From contig NZ_JAIMJB010000005.1 of the NCBI RefSeq assembly GCF_021295345.1, positions 124,001 to 188,000 on the forward strand: a DNA stretch of 64,000 nt, in the 5' to 3' direction. The notes under the pieces were generated by a model, which searched no databases, had not been told where the DNA came from, and saw only the letters and a program-made list of their open reading frames with translations. Numbering within the stretch: the stretch's first letter is position 1; each line of letters begins with the position of its first letter. This stretch comes from Motilimonas eburnea. Its GTDB lineage: Bacteria; Pseudomonadota; Gammaproteobacteria; Enterobacterales; CBDFNC01. The translations under genes were made by a program, and so were the position numbers. This document shows positions 3,194 through 10,022 of the stretch, in pieces.

Positions 3194-4078
3194 GTGCTTA
3201 AGCCTCACAAACGTTTTGAACGTTATCATCTCTTTAGTGTGGTGGCCGACACGCTCAATTTTGCCCGCGCTGCCGATATGCTGGGCATTTCAAAAAGTTA
3301 CTTATCAACCCAAATCAGTAACCTAGAGAAAGAGCTTGGGGTCAGTTTGCTGCTACGCACCACTCGCCATGTCAAACTCACCGCCGCGGGGCATCAGGTA
3401 TTGCAGCGCATGCGCCAGGTAAATGCCTCGATGGCCGACTTGGAAAAAAACCTAGCGCAAACCGCGGGTGAGATAACGGGGGAAATCAGCATTACCGCGC
3501 CTGTGCTGTTTAGCCAACGCTTTTTACTGCCTATGTGCAGCGCATTTCAACAGCAACACCCTGCCATAAGGTTTGATTTAGACATAGGCTATCAAACCGA
3601 AAATCTGGCTAGCAGCCGCTTCGACTTTGCCATTCGCGCCACCAATACCCCGCCAGCTAATATGGTGGCGAAAAAGCTCCTTAGTTATCAACATATTTGC
3701 TGCGCCTCTCCCGAATACCTAGCTAAATTTGGTCAGCCCAAACAGCTTTCCGATCTAGCTCATCATCATTGCTTATCCGATCCCCATCTCACCCAGTGGC
3801 AATTTGAGCAACAAACCATTAATACCCAAGGCAATCTAGGGATAAATGATAACTTGTTATTGATCCAAGCCGCGGTGCAAGGATTGGGCATCATTAAATT
3901 ACCCGACTTTGTGCTAACGCCGTTAATTACCCAAGGTAAGTTAGTGCAGGTCTTGCCTGACCAAAGTAGCAGCCAGCGCGATATTTATTTGGTGTTTCCA
4001 CATCTGCCAAAGCGCAGTGCGAAATTACAGGCTTTTATCGAACACACCAACCAGTTTATGGCTAACCATCAAACTTAG
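3194..4078 (+). CDS. LysR-family transcriptional regulator
   Basis: N-terminal winged helix-turn-helix (about residues 5-65, with FARAADMLGISKSYLSTQIS as the recognition region) followed by the periplasmic-binding-like effector domain, about 294 residues in all. The start is taken as GTG at 3194 because AGGTGG lies six bases upstream; an earlier in-frame TTG at 3176 has no ribosome site. Divergent from the aldo/keto reductase, which it probably controls. It belongs to the AaeR/DsdC-like LysR subgroup by the TTRHVKLT segment after the helix-turn-helix. The effector is unknown. Confidence 0.9.
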   Translation: MLKPHKRFERYHLFSVVADTLNFARAADMLGISKSYLSTQISNLEKELGVSLLLRTTRHVKLTAAGHQVLQRMRQVNASMADLEKNLAQTAGEITGEISITAPVLFSQRFLLPMCSAFQQQHPAIRFDLDIGYQTENLASSRFDFAIRATNTPPANMVAKKLLSYQHICCASPEYLAKFGQPKQLSDLAHHHCLSDPHLTQWQFEQQTINTQGNLGINDNLLLIQAAVQGLGIIKLPDFVLTPLITQGKLVQVLPDQSSSQRDIYLVFPHLPKRSAKLQAFIEHTNQFMANHQT

Positions 4079-4156
4079 CATTTGGAAAAGTTTCTCAGAT
4101 ACGCAGCCAACTTTACTTCTATACTCAGGTTATCTAACCACTAATATGCTTGTGTG

Positions 4157-5893
4157 ATGGCGCTAAAGAAACCTTGCTGGGCCTTACTGTTGTTCGCTTG
4201 GGCATTGCTGGTCAATGCAAATGAGGCAGAACCCGTTTTTAGTTATGGCGAAAACTTGCCCGATCTCGATCCCTCATTACCCGCTATTCGCTTTGTCGGC
4301 GATCGAGACTATCCACCGATAGAATGGCTAGAAGACGGTCAAGCCAAAGGCATCTTTCCTTCCATTTTGCCTGCCTTGGCTCAAGCCATTAATCGTAGAA
4401 TTGAATACCGATTAACGGATTGGAAGCAGGCGCAACAGATGGTCAAAGCCGGTCAAGCCGATGTGTTAACCGTGTTTAGCCCCAATTCTGAACGCATTCA
4501 TGACTACGACTTCGTGCCTAGCTTTCTCGAATTTGAGATGAGCTTATTTGTCACCAGCGACAATGTGACCATTCATGGCTTAAGTGATGTTAAAGGCTTA
4601 AAGGTCGGCGTACCCAAAGGCAGTTTTTTGATTGATACCTTAAACCAACAAAGTAAAGCTGACATTGTCGAAGTCCCAGACCATCAAGCCGGGTTTGAAA
4701 TGTTACTTGCCGGCCAGCTCAGCGCCTTTGCCACCAACAAATGGGTTGGCACTTACAGTATTCAAAAGATGGGCTTAACGGGCATCAAGTTCGTGAAACA
4801 GCCCATCTTAACTAAACCCACTCACTTAGGGTTAAAAAAGGGCAATGACCAGCTGGCTAAGCAACTCAACTCTGGGGTTCAAGAGCTTAAACTCAACGGT
4901 ACCATCGCGCGCCTAACCCAAGACTGGGAAAAGCTCGAAGTTATTTACCTAACCCAAGGCCGGCTAGAAAATATTTACGTTTTGGTAGGCACGACCTTTG
5001 TAGGGCTATTACTGCTGATCAGCTTATTCACCATAGTGCTGCTGAAACGCCGAGTGAAGCAAAAAACCCATTCGTTAGTCGAAGCCAATCAACGTTTAGA
5101 GCAAACCTTACACTTGCTGCAACAAACCCAAGAGCAGTTAGTGCAATCGCAAAAAATAGCCTCTCTCAATGCCTTAGTCGTTGGCCTTTCCCACGAAATC
5201 AACACGCCCTTAGGTAATGCCATCACCCTGTCTAGCTTATTCAATGAGCAAACCAGCGCCTTAGACCAAGCGCTGAGCAAAGGCAAAGATGGCATTAAAC
5301 TTAAACAAGTCATGCAAATAAGCGGTCAGCTAAATGAAAATACCGAACTGCTAAACAGCATATTGAAGCGTCTTGCCAGCTTAGTGAATAGCTTTCGCAG
5401 TGTGGCCCTCACCCAAGGCGATCAACACAGAGAGAAGTTCGACCTAGCCATACTGATCCAACAAGCCGTTGACAACCACAGCATCAAACTTGAGCAGCAA
5501 GGCGTCATAGTGCAGGTAAACGTGGCCGAGCCCATCGTGCTAGACAGCTACTGTGATTCACTGGCCTTGGTACTCGACCATCTAGTCCAAAACGCCTTAG
5601 TACACGGATTTGCTCAAACCGAACAGCCGCAACTTACCGTCAATGCCACCCTTGGTAATCGCCAAGCCATCATAGAGGTCGCCGATAATGGCAGTGGGAT
5701 CCCAGCCGATGACTTGCCCAAATTATTTGATCCCTTCTTTACCACCTCCTTAGGTAAAGGCAGCTCAGGCCTTGGCATGTATATTGTTTACACCTTAGTC
5801 ACCGGCTTATTGGGCGGCCAAGTCAAGGTCACTTCAGAGCAAGGATGCCAAGTCAAACTCACCTTACCTTTGTGTGCGCCCGAGGCAAATTAG
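4157..5893 (+). CDS. Sensor histidine kinase with periplasmic solute-binding domain
   Basis: A one-piece membrane sensor of about 578 residues. A signal peptide (to about residue 22) is followed by a family-3 solute-binding domain (about 40-260), one membrane helix (about 272-297), a coiled-coil linker and a histidine kinase core. The phospho-accepting His (near residue 346) is in LSHEINTPLG, and the ATPase lid shows DNGSGIP and GSSGLGMYIV. It has no receiver domain and no response regulator is next door, so its partner is encoded elsewhere. The binding domain suggests amino-acid or similar small-solute sensing. The ATG at 4157 directly follows a GTG at 4154; either could start. Confidence 0.88.
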   Translation: MALKKPCWALLLFAWALLVNANEAEPVFSYGENLPDLDPSLPAIRFVGDRDYPPIEWLEDGQAKGIFPSILPALAQAINRRIEYRLTDWKQAQQMVKAGQADVLTVFSPNSERIHDYDFVPSFLEFEMSLFVTSDNVTIHGLSDVKGLKVGVPKGSFLIDTLNQQSKADIVEVPDHQAGFEMLLAGQLSAFATNKWVGTYSIQKMGLTGIKFVKQPILTKPTHLGLKKGNDQLAKQLNSGVQELKLNGTIARLTQDWEKLEVIYLTQGRLENIYVLVGTTFVGLLLLISLFTIVLLKRRVKQKTHSLVEANQRLEQTLHLLQQTQEQLVQSQKIASLNALVVGLSHEINTPLGNAITLSSLFNEQTSALDQALSKGKDGIKLKQVMQISGQLNENTELLNSILKRLASLVNSFRSVALTQGDQHREKFDLAILIQQAVDNHSIKLEQQGVIVQVNVAEPIVLDSYCDSLALVLDHLVQNALVHGFAQTEQPQLTVNATLGNRQAIIEVADNGSGIPADDLPKLFDPFFTTSLGKGSSGLGMYIVYTLVTGLLGGQVKVTSEQGCQVKLTLPLCAPEAN

Positions 5894-6085
5894 CCTCTGC
5901 TAATTGTCACTCCTCCTCAAGGTAACTCGCTTATAGGCGGGCGATTCTTTGACACACAGCAATGAACAAAATGATATCTAAAAGATATTTTGTTTATAAA
6001 AACTTTTTCCGCTAACCTATGCACAAAAAAATCATTAACAACATCGTTTATATCGTATATATACCATTGTAAAAGGGAAAATCAG

Positions 6086-6973
6086 GTGAAATCTTTTAAT
6101 CAAACCATCATAGCTACCATTATTGGCACCACGTTTTTAACCGGTTGTGCATCCAATAAACAAGAAGTTGGCACATTATTAGGCGCAGCAACCGGGGTGT
6201 TAGTCGGCAGCGCCTTTGGTAGCGGCAGTGGTAAAGTCGCTGCGATGATCATTGGTGGCGTAGCGGGCTCACTCATCGGTAACTACATTGGCGCTTCACT
6301 TGATGAACAAGATCGCCAAGCCATGGCGCGCCATTCTGCCCAAGCAATGAATGAATTAGAAGATGGCCAACCGACTGTTTGGAAAAGTGAAACGTCCAAT
6401 GCCAGCGCCGTTATCACGCCAGTTGCGACGACCCAAAAAACCAAAACGATGAAGGTAGTAAAACTAAAGCAAGTTGAAGTATTACCTGTCAAAACCATGA
6501 TCAGCCAGCCCTATCAAACCAAATCAAGCCTAAATGTCAGACCGACGCCAAGCACTGAACATCAAGCGGTAGGCGGCCTTAAACAGGGCGAAGTAGTTAC
6601 CGCAGTAGGCGCAGTTGAAAATGGTTGGATCATGGTCGCCAAGAACAGTATTACCTTAGGTTATGTACACCCCGACTTTATTCAACCTTATGTCCCAGGC
6701 AATCACATCAACGAACAAGAGCGTGAAGTTGCTGCACAGCAAAGCATGCGCACGGCCATCGATCTTGACGCCATCGATACTCAGCAAACCAGCGCACAAT
6801 TATCGCAAGATACCGGCTTTGATTTAGACAGCATTGAACTGACCGAGGATGAACTGGTCGCTACCACCGAATGTCGCACCATGGAAGCGAAAGTAACCAG
6901 CGACAAAGGGCAACAATCAACCGAAACCTTTAATGCCTGTAAAGCTGCCGATGGTGCGTGGGAGCTTGGTTAA
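6086..6973 (+). CDS. Lipoprotein with glycine-zipper and SH3-like domains
   Basis: Begins at GTG 6086, eight bases after AAGGGA; the longer reading from 5990 would bury the signal peptide. VKSFNQTIIATIIGTTFLTGC is a lipoprotein signal (lipobox LTGC). Then comes a glycine-zipper 2TM segment (about residues 30-75, GxxxG spacing as in SlyB and 17-kDa surface antigens), a bacterial SH3 domain (about 150-205, including SSLNVRPTPSTEHQAVGGLK), and a C-terminal tail with two Cys. SH3 domains of this kind usually contact peptidoglycan. It is the first gene of a three-gene set: its stop and the next start overlap as TAATG. Role in envelope organisation is inferred. Confidence 0.8.
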   Translation: MKSFNQTIIATIIGTTFLTGCASNKQEVGTLLGAATGVLVGSAFGSGSGKVAAMIIGGVAGSLIGNYIGASLDEQDRQAMARHSAQAMNELEDGQPTVWKSETSNASAVITPVATTQKTKTMKVVKLKQVEVLPVKTMISQPYQTKSSLNVRPTPSTEHQAVGGLKQGEVVTAVGAVENGWIMVAKNSITLGYVHPDFIQPYVPGNHINEQEREVAAQQSMRTAIDLDAIDTQQTSAQLSQDTGFDLDSIELTEDELVATTECRTMEAKVTSDKGQQSTETFNACKAADGAWELG

Positions 6974-9033
6974 TGAAATACAGCATAGTGATAACCAGTG
7001 CTTCACTACTGCTGGCTCATGCCAGCTTTAGTGCCGCAGCCGAGCAAACTAGATTAGCGTATTCTAAAAAAGACCAAGTCGAAATATTTGCCGACCAACA
7101 ACAGGGTAAATGGTGCCAAAAGGCGATCAGTCTGAATCTCGTATCAGATAGCCCAACAGAATTACAACAACAAACCGTCGACATCTTGTTAAACAAGCTA
7201 ACAACCGTTGTTAATCGTGAATGCCCAACTGGCGAGGACATCGCCTTCAAGGTCACCGACCGACAAGAGCAGGTATTGTTTCAGGGTAGTCTATCCAAAT
7301 CTCAGCAATGGCAACCTCAATATGTTACTGCCACCAACCCAGTAGCAAATACTTCCGTAGCGCCAGCCGCAGCTGAACAAGCCAAAGCCGAGCAAGCCGC
7401 TGCAGAACAAGCTGCAGCCGAACAAGCCAAAGCCGAACAAGCCAAAGCCGAGCAAGCCAAAGCTGAGCAAGCCAAAGCTGAGCAAGCCAAAGCTGAGCAA
7501 GCCGCAGCTGAGCAAGCCAAAGCTGAGCAAGCCAAAGCCGAGCAAGCCGCAGCTGAACAAGCCGCAGCTGAACAAGCCGCAGCTGAACAAGCCGCAGCTG
7601 AACAAGCCGCAGCTGAACAAGCCGCAGCTGAACAAGCCGCAGCTGAACAAGCCGCAGCTGAACAAGCCGCAGCTGAACTAGCCGCAGCCGAGCAAGCCGC
7701 ATTATTTGAACTGGCGGGTTGGAAGCCTGAGCTAAGCAGAAAAGGATTTGTTTACCAAGGCGACAAACCCGACCAATTGATCAAAGATAAAACGGGGTGC
7801 CTGTTATATGCGCCAACTATCCGGGTCGAAGATCGACCCTATGTCAGGGTTACTCGCGAGGGGGGAGAATGTATCGATGGCCACCTTAACGGCGTTGCCA
7901 AGCTGAAGTTTAAACGTCAAGATGGTAAAAACCTTGGCAAGATAAAAGCGCACTTCCTCTACGGTTACCCGTTTAAATCCTTACCAAAGGATAAGGAACT
8001 CTATCCCGTTGCACGCATCAACCAAGGTCATGACATCCTATTAATGTGGCTGGGTTCCGATCCTAAGCTTAAGCAACACTACTTTGTCCCCGCCGTATAT
8101 GCCTATAACGGCCTATTTCAATTATCGGAAAGTGCGGGTTATGTCATGACCAGCGAAACCGCGGCGTTTATGGATGAAGACTTATTCAAGCCCTTAATCG
8201 CAGAGAGCTTTCGCCCATTCACCGACAATTTAAGAACCCGCGACGGTTATACCGTGTATTTCGTAGACGGCTTCCCTGATGTGAATAAAATCCATGGCTA
8301 CAGTGATGAGCATAAACTTTATAGCTATCGAGTTAATCATCATCGTAAAAAAGGCACTTATGTCAACTGGGATAGAACTAACAACTTCTATTTCGAGCGC
8401 ACGCTCAAGCAGCAACAACAACTTGCCCAACAAAAAGCACGTGAAGAAGAGCAAGCCAAACGCTTAGCGGAACAAGAAGCTCGAGAGGCAGAGCGCAAGG
8501 CTCAGCAAAGGGCGCAAGAACAAGCGCGTATCGCGTTGGAAATGAACAACACTTATGAACGCTTAACCAAAGCAGACAAATGGACCCGGATTGCCGATGG
8601 CTTGCAGCAAGAGCTAAAACTGTTCCAACCTGCGATCTATGTTGCTCACAGCTACCAACATCGACCGCTAAATTCTCCTTACGGCTTTAATCTGGGTGAA
8701 TTAGCAATGGCCAGAAAGCAACACAAAGGCACATTTGTGTTCAAGATTGATGAAAAAGAAGACGGTTATTACACCACAGGTGAGCCTTATCAAGTGCATG
8801 TACACAGTGAAGAACCACTGGAAGAAGGCCATTGGTATGGTGTCACCGCGTTTGTCGGGGCGAGTTACGATAAACTGGATGATAACCAATTATTTATCCC
8901 ACAGCTTAACGTCGATGCCAGCTACCTTTGTCAGCAAGCCAAGTGTACCGAATTGGATGACCCCGTCATGATAGTGCGCAAACAATATTCCGCTCCACAA
9001 TGGACGCCTGAATCAAGCAAGGAGGCGCAGTAA
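6973..9033 (+). CDS. Secreted protein with Ala-rich pentad repeat and coiled coil
   Basis: Start ATG 6973 overlaps the previous stop (TAATG), giving 686 residues. A Sec signal peptide (about residues 1-23, cut near SAAAEQ) is followed by a small globular part, then 22 five-residue units of the type A(A/K)AEQ (about residues 132-241), predicted to be one long charged helix. A larger globular region (about 245-475) follows, then a second Gln/Glu/Ala-rich coiled coil (about 477-525) and a C-terminal domain. TolA-like spacing helices are the closest analogy; no family was recognised for the globular parts. It ends with another TAATG overlap. It probably acts in the periplasm with its two neighbours. 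Confidence 0.75.
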   Translation: MKYSIVITSASLLLAHASFSAAAEQTRLAYSKKDQVEIFADQQQGKWCQKAISLNLVSDSPTELQQQTVDILLNKLTTVVNRECPTGEDIAFKVTDRQEQVLFQGSLSKSQQWQPQYVTATNPVANTSVAPAAAEQAKAEQAAAEQAAAEQAKAEQAKAEQAKAEQAKAEQAKAEQAAAEQAKAEQAKAEQAAAEQAAAEQAAAEQAAAEQAAAEQAAAEQAAAEQAAAEQAAAELAAAEQAALFELAGWKPELSRKGFVYQGDKPDQLIKDKTGCLLYAPTIRVEDRPYVRVTREGGECIDGHLNGVAKLKFKRQDGKNLGKIKAHFLYGYPFKSLPKDKELYPVARINQGHDILLMWLGSDPKLKQHYFVPAVYAYNGLFQLSESAGYVMTSETAAFMDEDLFKPLIAESFRPFTDNLRTRDGYTVYFVDGFPDVNKIHGYSDEHKLYSYRVNHHRKKGTYVNWDRTNNFYFERTLKQQQQLAQQKAREEEQAKRLAEQEAREAERKAQQRAQEQARIALEMNNTYERLTKADKWTRIADGLQQELKLFQPAIYVAHSYQHRPLNSPYGFNLGELAMARKQHKGTFVFKIDEKEDGYYTTGEPYQVHVHSEEPLEEGHWYGVTAFVGASYDKLDDNQLFIPQLNVDASYLCQQAKCTELDDPVMIVRKQYSAPQWTPESSKEAQ
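7366..7695 (+). repeat. 15-bp coding minisatellite, 22 units
   Basis: Twenty-two consecutive 15-bp units run without interruption, variants of GCCGCAGCTGAACAA. Units from 7546 to 7665 (eight of them) are identical. Each unit encodes one pentad A(A/K)AEQ, so length changes by slippage keep the reading frame. The uniform 3' block suggests recent expansion. The complementary strand is open in all three frames across the block, a by-product of the repeat. Confidence 0.95.
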
Positions 9034-9989
9034 TGAAGAATAAACTCATCATAGGTGTTGCCATCGCCGTATGCGCCATCATCGGCTGGCACTTCACCGC
9101 CCAGTCCATTGCCAAAAGCAAAATAGAAACCGCATTTAAGGAGCACCAGCTCGACCGCTTTATCAGCTACCGAGACATGAGCGTAAACAGCTTCACATTA
9201 GATGCCACCTTAGAAAAAGTGACCCTTAACATAACTTTGCCCCAGGTTTTTCGCAAAGCCGTGGTCATCAACCTAGAGGCTGACGCCATCGTGTTGCGTG
9301 ATTTCAACAACGACGATGATGAGCTCAAACTTGATGCCAGCTTAAACGGGTTAAAGTTCGACTTTAATAGCCCAACGCATATGGCGTTACTGCAAAGCCT
9401 TGATTGGGTAGCCAAGCCCTTGCTTGATCTTGCTTACCAAGAGCTCACTCTAGATACAGAGATCGTTTTTTCGCTGGATAAAACAGGTGGTGAATCGAGT
9501 CTAGCCATCACCTTAAAAGACGAGAATAAGGCCACTGTTTTCCATCAGTTAACCGGTGAACAATGGCAAAGCTTACCCCTACTCGTAGAAGGAAACCCGT
9601 TACAAAACATGCACAAACTGGGTCAAATTGCATTTACCTCTGTGCAAGTTTCGGTGGAGGATCATGGCCTATTTGCACGAAGTTATGATTTATACAGCAA
9701 ATCAATTGTCATCACCCCCGACGATGTACCCTCTCGTGAACAGCTAAAATTCACCCATGATTTTGAAAAGGCACAAAAAGAAGGCGAGCGTGATGGTATC
9801 AACATTGATGTCGCTGAAATCGGCGAAGCTTACGCTGATTTTATCGATGATCCAGACACCTTCGGCCTTAGCATCAGCGCTGATGAGCCTGTGGTCGTAA
9901 TAGATATATTTAACCTCTTTGCGGGCAGGCCCAATGGGCAAGAAATCATCAAGCTAATCAATCAGCTTGACGTAGAGGTCATTCAATAA
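9033..9989 (+). CDS. Membrane-anchored periplasmic protein, unknown function
   Basis: 318 residues. Start ATG 9033 overlaps the preceding stop as TAATG, so translation is probably coupled. An N-terminal hydrophobic helix (about residues 4-24) reads as an uncleaved anchor or signal; the rest is a soluble periplasmic domain rich in beta strands and acidic residues. The pattern of a short anchor followed by long amphipathic beta structure resembles AsmA/DUF945-type envelope proteins, but no diagnostic motif was recognised. Third and last gene of the operon, followed 8 bases later by a strong intrinsic terminator. Confidence 0.75.
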   Translation: MKNKLIIGVAIAVCAIIGWHFTAQSIAKSKIETAFKEHQLDRFISYRDMSVNSFTLDATLEKVTLNITLPQVFRKAVVINLEADAIVLRDFNNDDDELKLDASLNGLKFDFNSPTHMALLQSLDWVAKPLLDLAYQELTLDTEIVFSLDKTGGESSLAITLKDENKATVFHQLTGEQWQSLPLLVEGNPLQNMHKLGQIAFTSVQVSVEDHGLFARSYDLYSKSIVITPDDVPSREQLKFTHDFEKAQKEGERDGINIDVAEIGEAYADFIDDPDTFGLSISADEPVVVIDIFNLFAGRPNGQEIIKLINQLDVEVIQ

Positions 9990-9996
9990 TCCCAAC

Positions 9997-10022
9997 AGCC
10001 CCGCCAATGCGGGGCTTGTTTT
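9997..10022 (+). terminator. Intrinsic terminator of the envelope operon
   Basis: Perfect 8-bp stem AGCCCCGC-CAAT-GCGGGGCT followed by TGTTTT, eight bases after the stop codon at 9989. Confidence 0.9.

Follow-up and report, generated by a model that had tools for sequence, protein, structure and literature searches.

Which kind of envelope device is encoded by the three genes that lie, coupled stop to start, at positions 6086 to 9989 of the stretch of Motilimonas eburnea DNA analysed here (the window, 64,000 nucleotides of contig NZ_JAIMJB010000005.1)? The genes are all on the forward strand and we call them P1 (6086..6973, 295 amino acids, GTG start at 6086, TAA at 6971-6973), P2 (6973..9033, 686 amino acids, ATG at 6973, TAA at 9031-9033) and P3 (9033..9989, 318 amino acids, ATG at 9033). 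A preliminary description, made from the sequence alone, had seen in them an operon joined by two TAATG overlaps, and its coordinates and both junctions (6971..6975 from P1 to P2 and 9031..9035 from P2 to P3) stood when read in the sequence. The start of P1 is the one chosen there; it is compatible with the lipobox, and the mechanical open reading frame is longer (TTG at 5990). What that description overlooked is an RtkS-like domain in P2 and the likeness of P1 to TagV. RtkS regulates a kinase of the type VI secretion system (T6SS) in Serratia. We give even chances to the view that the trio is an autonomous module of the TagV-RtkS type that spans the envelope and is independent of a T6SS.

In P2, the RtkS-like part is domain B. 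The protein consists of a domain A (residues 25-118), a spacer, a domain B (residues ~245-470, encoded at 7705..8382 on the forward strand), a long helix (472-549) and a C-terminal domain resembling an OB fold (574-662). When a P2 profile was compared with all PDB sequences, RtkS came top (E 2.2e-7) and was the sole credible PDB sequence, the next being at 0.11. Domain B was assigned by this profile, by fold and by hhalign. The AlphaFold model of P2 (mean pLDDT 79; all models here are of single proteins) was built from an alignment, A4, of 32 rows, including the sequence of locus L085 that lacks domain B. Over residues 262-460 it matched RtkS and the RtkS-PpkA entry with a Z of 10.3 (180 residues, rmsd 4.8), and Foldseek ranked RtkS first (E 6.7e-6). 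The N-terminal half of P2 also resembles a protein from the T6SS clusters of Pantoea piersonii and Escherichia albertii, whose gene stands between those for the phosphatase PppA and for TagJ (hhalign probability 99%, E 1.7e-18, 305 columns, four cysteines aligned), and this protein matches the sequences of the RtkS crystal structures at 1.9e-29. Separate models of domains A and B, built without L085 and run against a set of eight sequences, matched the E. albertii protein at 1.6e-19 and 2.7e-7; the C-terminal domain had no counterpart in that protein in the same search.

P2 shares with RtkS the order of domains A and B, the four aligned cysteines and a predicted periplasmic location, which for P2 is suggested by a hydrophobic N-terminus that looks by eye like a signal peptide. 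In contrast, RtkS is a two-domain protein of ~300-330 amino acids in the T6SS clusters read, about half the length of P2, which adds the spacer, the long helix and the OB-like domain. The gene of RtkS lies in a T6SS cluster near fha and pppA, whereas that of P2 lies outside any such cluster, and the partner of RtkS is PpkA whereas the gene after P2 is P3. The OB-fold matches of the C-terminal domain (Z 7.4 to 9.1) are generic and we used them as a description of shape only. The fold search listed no match for domain A and the spacer, which is not in itself evidence for a new fold. P2 and P3 reached no curated cut-off in Pfam or NCBIfam, and the NCBIfam matches of P2 fall in the low-complexity spacer; PHROGs and PADLOC gave weak matches at most, to parts of P2. 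RtkS has been described as a periplasmic protein that binds the kinase PpkA; in that report, homologues are named only in related T6SSs, no structural relatives are reported, and the signal to which RtkS responds is given as unknown (PMC6082577).

The preliminary description of P1 as a glycine-zipper/SH3 lipoprotein agrees with its domains. The protein has a lipobox (LTGC, followed by A), a glycine zipper (Rick_17kDa_Anti, 1.6e-7), an SH3_3 domain (2.6e-9), both over the Pfam cut-off, and a C-terminal mini-domain with two cysteines. The lipobox is found in 58 of the 61 P1 sequences, none of these 58 has Asp at +2 (a reading of the sequences only), and the other three (L039, L070 and L107) lack it because the mechanical open reading frames begin too early. 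We predict P1 to be a TagV-like outer-membrane lipoprotein. TagV belongs to the same Serratia T6SS as RtkS. It has been described as a lipoprotein of the outer membrane that combines an SH3b domain with a C-terminal mini-domain closed by a single disulphide, and it was proposed to bind the wall (PMC7614798). A TagV profile made from two sequences had P1 as its best match in all 12 trio genomes tried (E from 5e-9 to 0.034), with only two further matches across these genomes (E 0.2 and 0.5); the 12 genomes were hand-picked, and match coordinates were compared with trio positions by hand. Alignment of P1 with the TagV-like proteins of E. albertii and Pantoea, encoded in T6SS clusters before tssJ, gave 94-95% in hhalign over the SH3 domain. 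The cysteines and tryptophans of the mini-domain were aligned in nine of nine sequences (five P1 and four TagV-like). P1 and TagV have in common the outer-membrane lipobox, the SH3 domain and the C-terminal Cys...Cys...W mini-domain, but the glycine-zipper region is extra in P1, which sits outside any T6SS cluster.

The third protein was said in the preliminary description to be anchored, and a single N-terminal hydrophobic stretch, present in 60 of 61 P3 sequences, agrees with this. Behind the membrane anchor, P3 is modelled as a beta-rich domain with a JlpA-like fold. The AlphaFold model (31-row alignment, mean pLDDT 79.5) matched JlpA of Campylobacter jejuni (3UAU) with a Z of 11.4 over 242 residues (rmsd 6.2), the next row being at 7.5, and Foldseek also placed JlpA first (2e-5), followed by LptC (0.058). 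JlpA is lipid-anchored, whereas P3 is anchored by its hydrophobic stretch, and a P3 profile found no related sequence among those of the PDB. The P3 of the window has no match to DUF945 (PF06097) in Pfam; one relative has a sub-threshold match (18.4 bits vs 26.8). We considered P3 as a relative of PpkA and rejected this for want of a sequence match.

The preliminary description held that the three envelope-type proteins belong together. We scanned 84,980 species, each represented by a single genome, for two short peptide patterns of P1, a search that is not exhaustive. This gave 110 relatives, of which 80 were kept (79 loci); 65 loci have a full-length P1, and outside these are 13 loci with a partial P1 and neither P2 nor P3 (L109-L120, L123) and a fragment (L122). 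P2 and P3 follow P1 on the same strand in 56 of the 65 loci, five others are cut by contig ends (L067, L084, L088, L093 and L099), and four are real exceptions. The three proteins do belong together, and homologues standing singly in unrelated contexts, which had been named as the finding that would speak against the operon, are not what the loci present. Adding four loci from a plasmid collection, one a second copy of L061, gives 60 measured trios, in which gaps or overlaps are of at most 15 bp between P1 and P2 in 58 and between P2 and P3 in 59 (a script placed the P2 and P3 starts close to the preceding stop codon). These loci are not independent: the 60 trios reduce to 30 at 75% P3 identity, and L061 and L036 are one plasmid.

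Trios occur in beta- and gammaproteobacteria and on plasmids. The genera include Pseudomonas, Stutzerimonas, Halopseudomonas, Atopomonas, Nitrincola, Marinobacterium, Sedimenticola, Thauera, Denitromonas, Advenella, Paenalcaligenes and Corticimicrobacter. The trio moves as its own unit, and the commonest neighbour family is found in only 15 of 70 loci. It is rare among close relatives of M. eburnea: P3 was found in one of 148 relatives and the C-terminal part of P2 in one of 394 genomes of the order, in both cases this genome itself, and three congeners have neither. Of 99 relatives, 33, counting this genome, have weaker P1 matches; these fall mostly within the glycine zipper and are no orthologues. 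In the wider class, P3 has a match in one genome (G725, 7e-6) with relatives of P2 and P1 adjoining in the order seen here. A second match (G468, E 0.0098, one internal stop) has no adjoining P2-like frame and was not counted. Among the 369 genomes of the class, four had a P1 profile match beyond the 1e-25 threshold: M. eburnea itself, G725, G746, where a P2-like frame lies beside P1, and G639, where the short slice holds none.

If the trio is related to T6SS regulators, one expects to ask where TagV and RtkS themselves occur. Of 295 genomes of the order, 10 encode RtkS-like proteins. All belong to one family and together they have 12 such places; genes for PppA-like proteins and TagH adjoin nine of these but not the other three. 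We cut slices of 18-20 kb around 10 of the 12 places (for G266 and G096 only the first place was taken). TagV lies in the same slice as RtkS in nine; the tenth slice stops inside tssK. At the three places without PppA (G111, G139 and G207), TagV, RtkS and a PpkA relative are consecutive on one strand, in an order like that of the trio (L165, 3496-6426 on the forward strand; L166, ~3943-6871, forward; L167, 13751-16662, reverse), and other T6SS queries had no match at 1e-4 within ~35 kb around them. Protein kinases are recognised by a glycine-rich loop and by the VAIK, DFG and HRD motifs. In these three PpkA relatives the glycine-rich loop is lost, the VAIK lysine is replaced by N, H or R, DFG reads NAG in two and EFG in the third, and HRD is lost in one. 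Those three genomes thus also have, away from any T6SS cluster, a TagV-RtkS pair whose inner-membrane partner shows no obvious sign of being an active kinase. They are probably Enterobacteriaceae, since RtkS of G079, a member of the same family, is 83% identical to that of E. albertii. The rtkS-like gene of E. albertii had no match in E. coli genomes.

A comparable layout is known from Pseudomonas aeruginosa, where TagQRST-PpkA senses outer-membrane damage (PMC11881912). By layout, as judged from papers, an outer-membrane lipoprotein, a periplasmic protein and an inner-membrane partner would, if our reading holds, be common to that system and to the trio; unlike the trio, it includes the ABC-transporter-like TagST and has T6SS assembly as its output.

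These comparisons lead us to a model of how the trio might work, in which locations are proposed because of position and homology. P1 would be fixed in the outer membrane by its lipid and grip the cell wall with its SH3 domain. P2 would serve as an adaptor in the periplasm that reaches through the wall from P1 to P3; its RtkS core is extended by the long helix, the OB-like domain and a spacer that varies. At the inner membrane, P3 would be the partner and expose a cupped beta domain to the periplasm. It would take the place of PpkA, the inner-membrane kinase on which RtkS acts in T6SS clusters. Outer-membrane damage or altered spacing might then change the contact between P2 and P3. Because P3 has almost no cytoplasmic part, the signal would have to reach the cell via another protein, or else the module would be mechanical or act on lipids. 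As to origins, we find it plausible, at slightly less than even chances, that TagV and RtkS represent the T6SS branch of a T6SS-independent envelope module, older or parallel, that senses the outer membrane and the wall and was recruited by T6SS as a kinase input. Its partner would be JlpA-like here, an active kinase in T6SSs and a PpkA relative with lost motifs in the three genomes above. Among the open-licence papers searched we found none on a T6SS-free TagV-RtkS module and, in line with the preliminary description, no known system with the gene order of the trio. A T6SS-free module with relatives of RtkS and TagV would allow sensing to be studied apart from the weapon. It would also provide a first functional frame for proteins that now carry only the label hypothetical or SH3-domain protein, both in genomes of Pseudomonas and its relatives and on Pseudomonas megaplasmids.

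Several observations weigh against this reading. The fold match between P2 and RtkS is at 14% identity only, and the domain B model scores the Pantoea protein at just 6e-4. The link between P1 and TagV is weaker than that between P2 and RtkS, because SH3 domains are common and the profile is of two sequences: the match comes mainly from the SH3 domain, and E values are weak for part of the genomes (one is at 0.034, that of M. eburnea at 3.5e-4). P3 has no match with PpkA, and the T6SS clusters read showed no counterpart of it. The model is weakest on the output, given that P3 has hardly any cytoplasmic part. The trio encodes no kinase; among six Pkinase-like matches in this genome, one has a clear transmembrane stretch and another, partial, a marginal one, and nothing ties either membrane protein to the trio. 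Finally, there are the four exceptions. L105 (6905-7846) has P1 and a fourth gene but neither P2 nor P3, and in L049 (7851-9446), which lacks the end of P2 and P3, another gene follows. In the two Sedimenticola loci L085 (7823-10246) and L098 (7853-10294), P1 is followed by a protein of ~810 amino acids that has kept domain A but lacks both domain B and the C-terminal domain; neither locus has a recognisable P3.

The other explanations have to account for the same features. P1 and P2 resemble TagV and RtkS, as they would if the trio were an accessory set acting in trans on a T6SS encoded elsewhere in the genome. This is very improbable. With nine T6SS proteins as queries, neither the window nor any of 84 loci, of which 70 have a full-length P1, gave a match at 1e-5, and PF05943, the TssC-type sheath family, was found nowhere in this genome, which is 99.95% complete, while the E. 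coli control was positive; for this genome, we rejected the explanation on the missing sheath gene alone, a verdict that would fall only if the assembly lacked the cluster. A bridge that handles lipids or lipoproteins is unlikely too, though less so. In such a device the cupped beta sheet of P3 would bind a hydrophobic ligand at the inner membrane, P2 would carry or guide it across the wall and P1 would be the outer-membrane dock. JlpA is the one outstanding fold match of P3, LptC and LptA are among the weaker rows (Z 5 to 6), LptC is second in Foldseek and one P3 relative has the sub-threshold DUF945 match. However, the Z values of LptC and LptA are in the common range of the tool, with porins and ushers in the same list, the trio lacks an ATPase or permease, and the likeness to RtkS and TagV favours regulation over transport.

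It is somewhat more doubtful still that the trio is cargo of plasmids and variable chromosomal sites that protects the cell from contact attack, phage or foreign DNA. The trio is found on Pseudomonas megaplasmids, a plasmid of Pseudomonas cerasi has it next to an AAA ATPase, a helicase and a GNAT/DUF1778 pair, and in this species it occupies a site that varies relative to two congeners. Yet neighbours differ by genus, and a single plasmid neighbourhood is no statistic. A defence system was also rejected by the searches: P1, the C-terminal 444 and N-terminal 126 amino acids of P2, and P3 had no match in PADLOC-DB. The preliminary description had suggested a TolA-like spacer and device, and of all explanations an energy-coupled TolA- or Tol-Pal-like machine now has the least to recommend it. 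The helix of TolA is rich in Ala and Glu, with a composition akin to that of the AAAEQ helix in the P2 of the window, and the TolA model (TIGR02794) does score P2, at 11.8 bits (E 0.1). This is far under the cut-off of 59.45 and the pentads are not kept in the P2 family: AEQA-type matches number 21 in the window P2, but none in the other 60 save four with one each. In addition, P2 has an apparent signal peptide, and the genes flanking the trio encode a sensor kinase and an ABC-2 permease. We rejected this device on the model score and on the survey of the other spacers.

The spacer between domains A and B is itself variable. Its length ranges from 85 to 189 amino acids in all 61 P2 (median 115; 143 in the window), and it is mostly Pro/Ala-rich elsewhere, whereas that of the window has 45% Ala and 2% Pro. 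The conserved trait is the presence of a spacer and not the pentad helix, and the TolA-like pentad helix is a local peculiarity of the window. It is encoded by a 15-bp tandem array at 7365..7701 on the forward strand (22.5 copies, 90% matches, AAAEQ/AKAEQ pentads). This array looks most uniform in its 3' half, as if expanded recently, and pentad number may therefore differ between strains. Binding of the P1 SH3 domain to a proline-rich P2 spacer was considered and is a weak candidate, the spacer of the window having so little proline.

The interval that carries the trio in this genome is a variable site, since two congeners carry a different pair of genes there. Both are collinear with the window up to a LysR gene (~4062) and again from the ABC-2 permease (10033) on, and between the two a chemoreceptor-like gene and a small secreted protein (named by eye) replace the sensor kinase and the trio. 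The sensor kinase has an SBP_bac_3 input domain and lies ~190 bp upstream of the trio (4154-5893, forward strand); it had no match at 1e-60 in three congeners. We did not retain it as a member of the unit, as no upstream family recurs beside most trios. Elsewhere in the genome, L145 (G000 contig 6) encodes a kinase-like protein that has a short tail and a single transmembrane stretch. Of the six Pkinase-like matches it is the most convincing membrane candidate, but it has no link to the trio.

On plasmids, the trio is best represented in Pseudomonas. A search that went from P2 to the Pseudomonas cerasi plasmid and from there to plasmid records gave some P2 match in 109 records, 105 of them from Pseudomonas. 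Four Pseudomonas plasmids that were opened (Rms139, pTTS12 and two more) have the SH3 protein, P2 and P3 in order; in the Pantoea and Escherichia records opened, the match covers only the N-terminal part of P2 and lies in T6SS clusters. Rms139 and pTTS12 are of a large megaplasmid type (PLSDB type rep_cluster_1115), which we take to be IncP-2. Pseudomonas megaplasmids of this type are known for carrying drug resistance, and the term SH3 is absent from the main text of the paper on IncP-2 megaplasmids (PMC7070040). Plasmid-type loci (L039, 7189-8457; L043, 3837-5096; and others) have a gene for a membrane protein of ~420 amino acids before P1. Of 70 loci, 15 have this fourth gene (cluster 0), with TerD-like and VWA genes nearby. 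On the P. cerasi plasmid (L036, 1-9196), the trio lies between the AAA ATPase/helicase genes and the GNAT/DUF1778 pair, which is toxin-antitoxin-like; the former look like a candidate Gabija-like pair. Three contigs classed as viral (L168, L169 and L170) encode full-length relatives of P1 by profile and may be plasmids; L168 also encodes P2, and the other two end just past P1. Phage origin was rejected: PHROGs matches are at the domain level for P1 and weak for parts of P2, P3 had no match in phage records, and the P2 part had none in viral contigs.

Downstream of P3, the terminator-like hairpin noted in the preliminary description is present at 9997..10016, followed by TGTTTTATAC. It has eight pairs, seven of them G-C, with a G+C-rich stem and a T-rich tail. 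The hairpin scan as a whole is at shuffle level (eight sites found vs 7.1 expected). The hairpin is listed on the forward strand but is flanked by convergent genes, and it may hence serve either strand.

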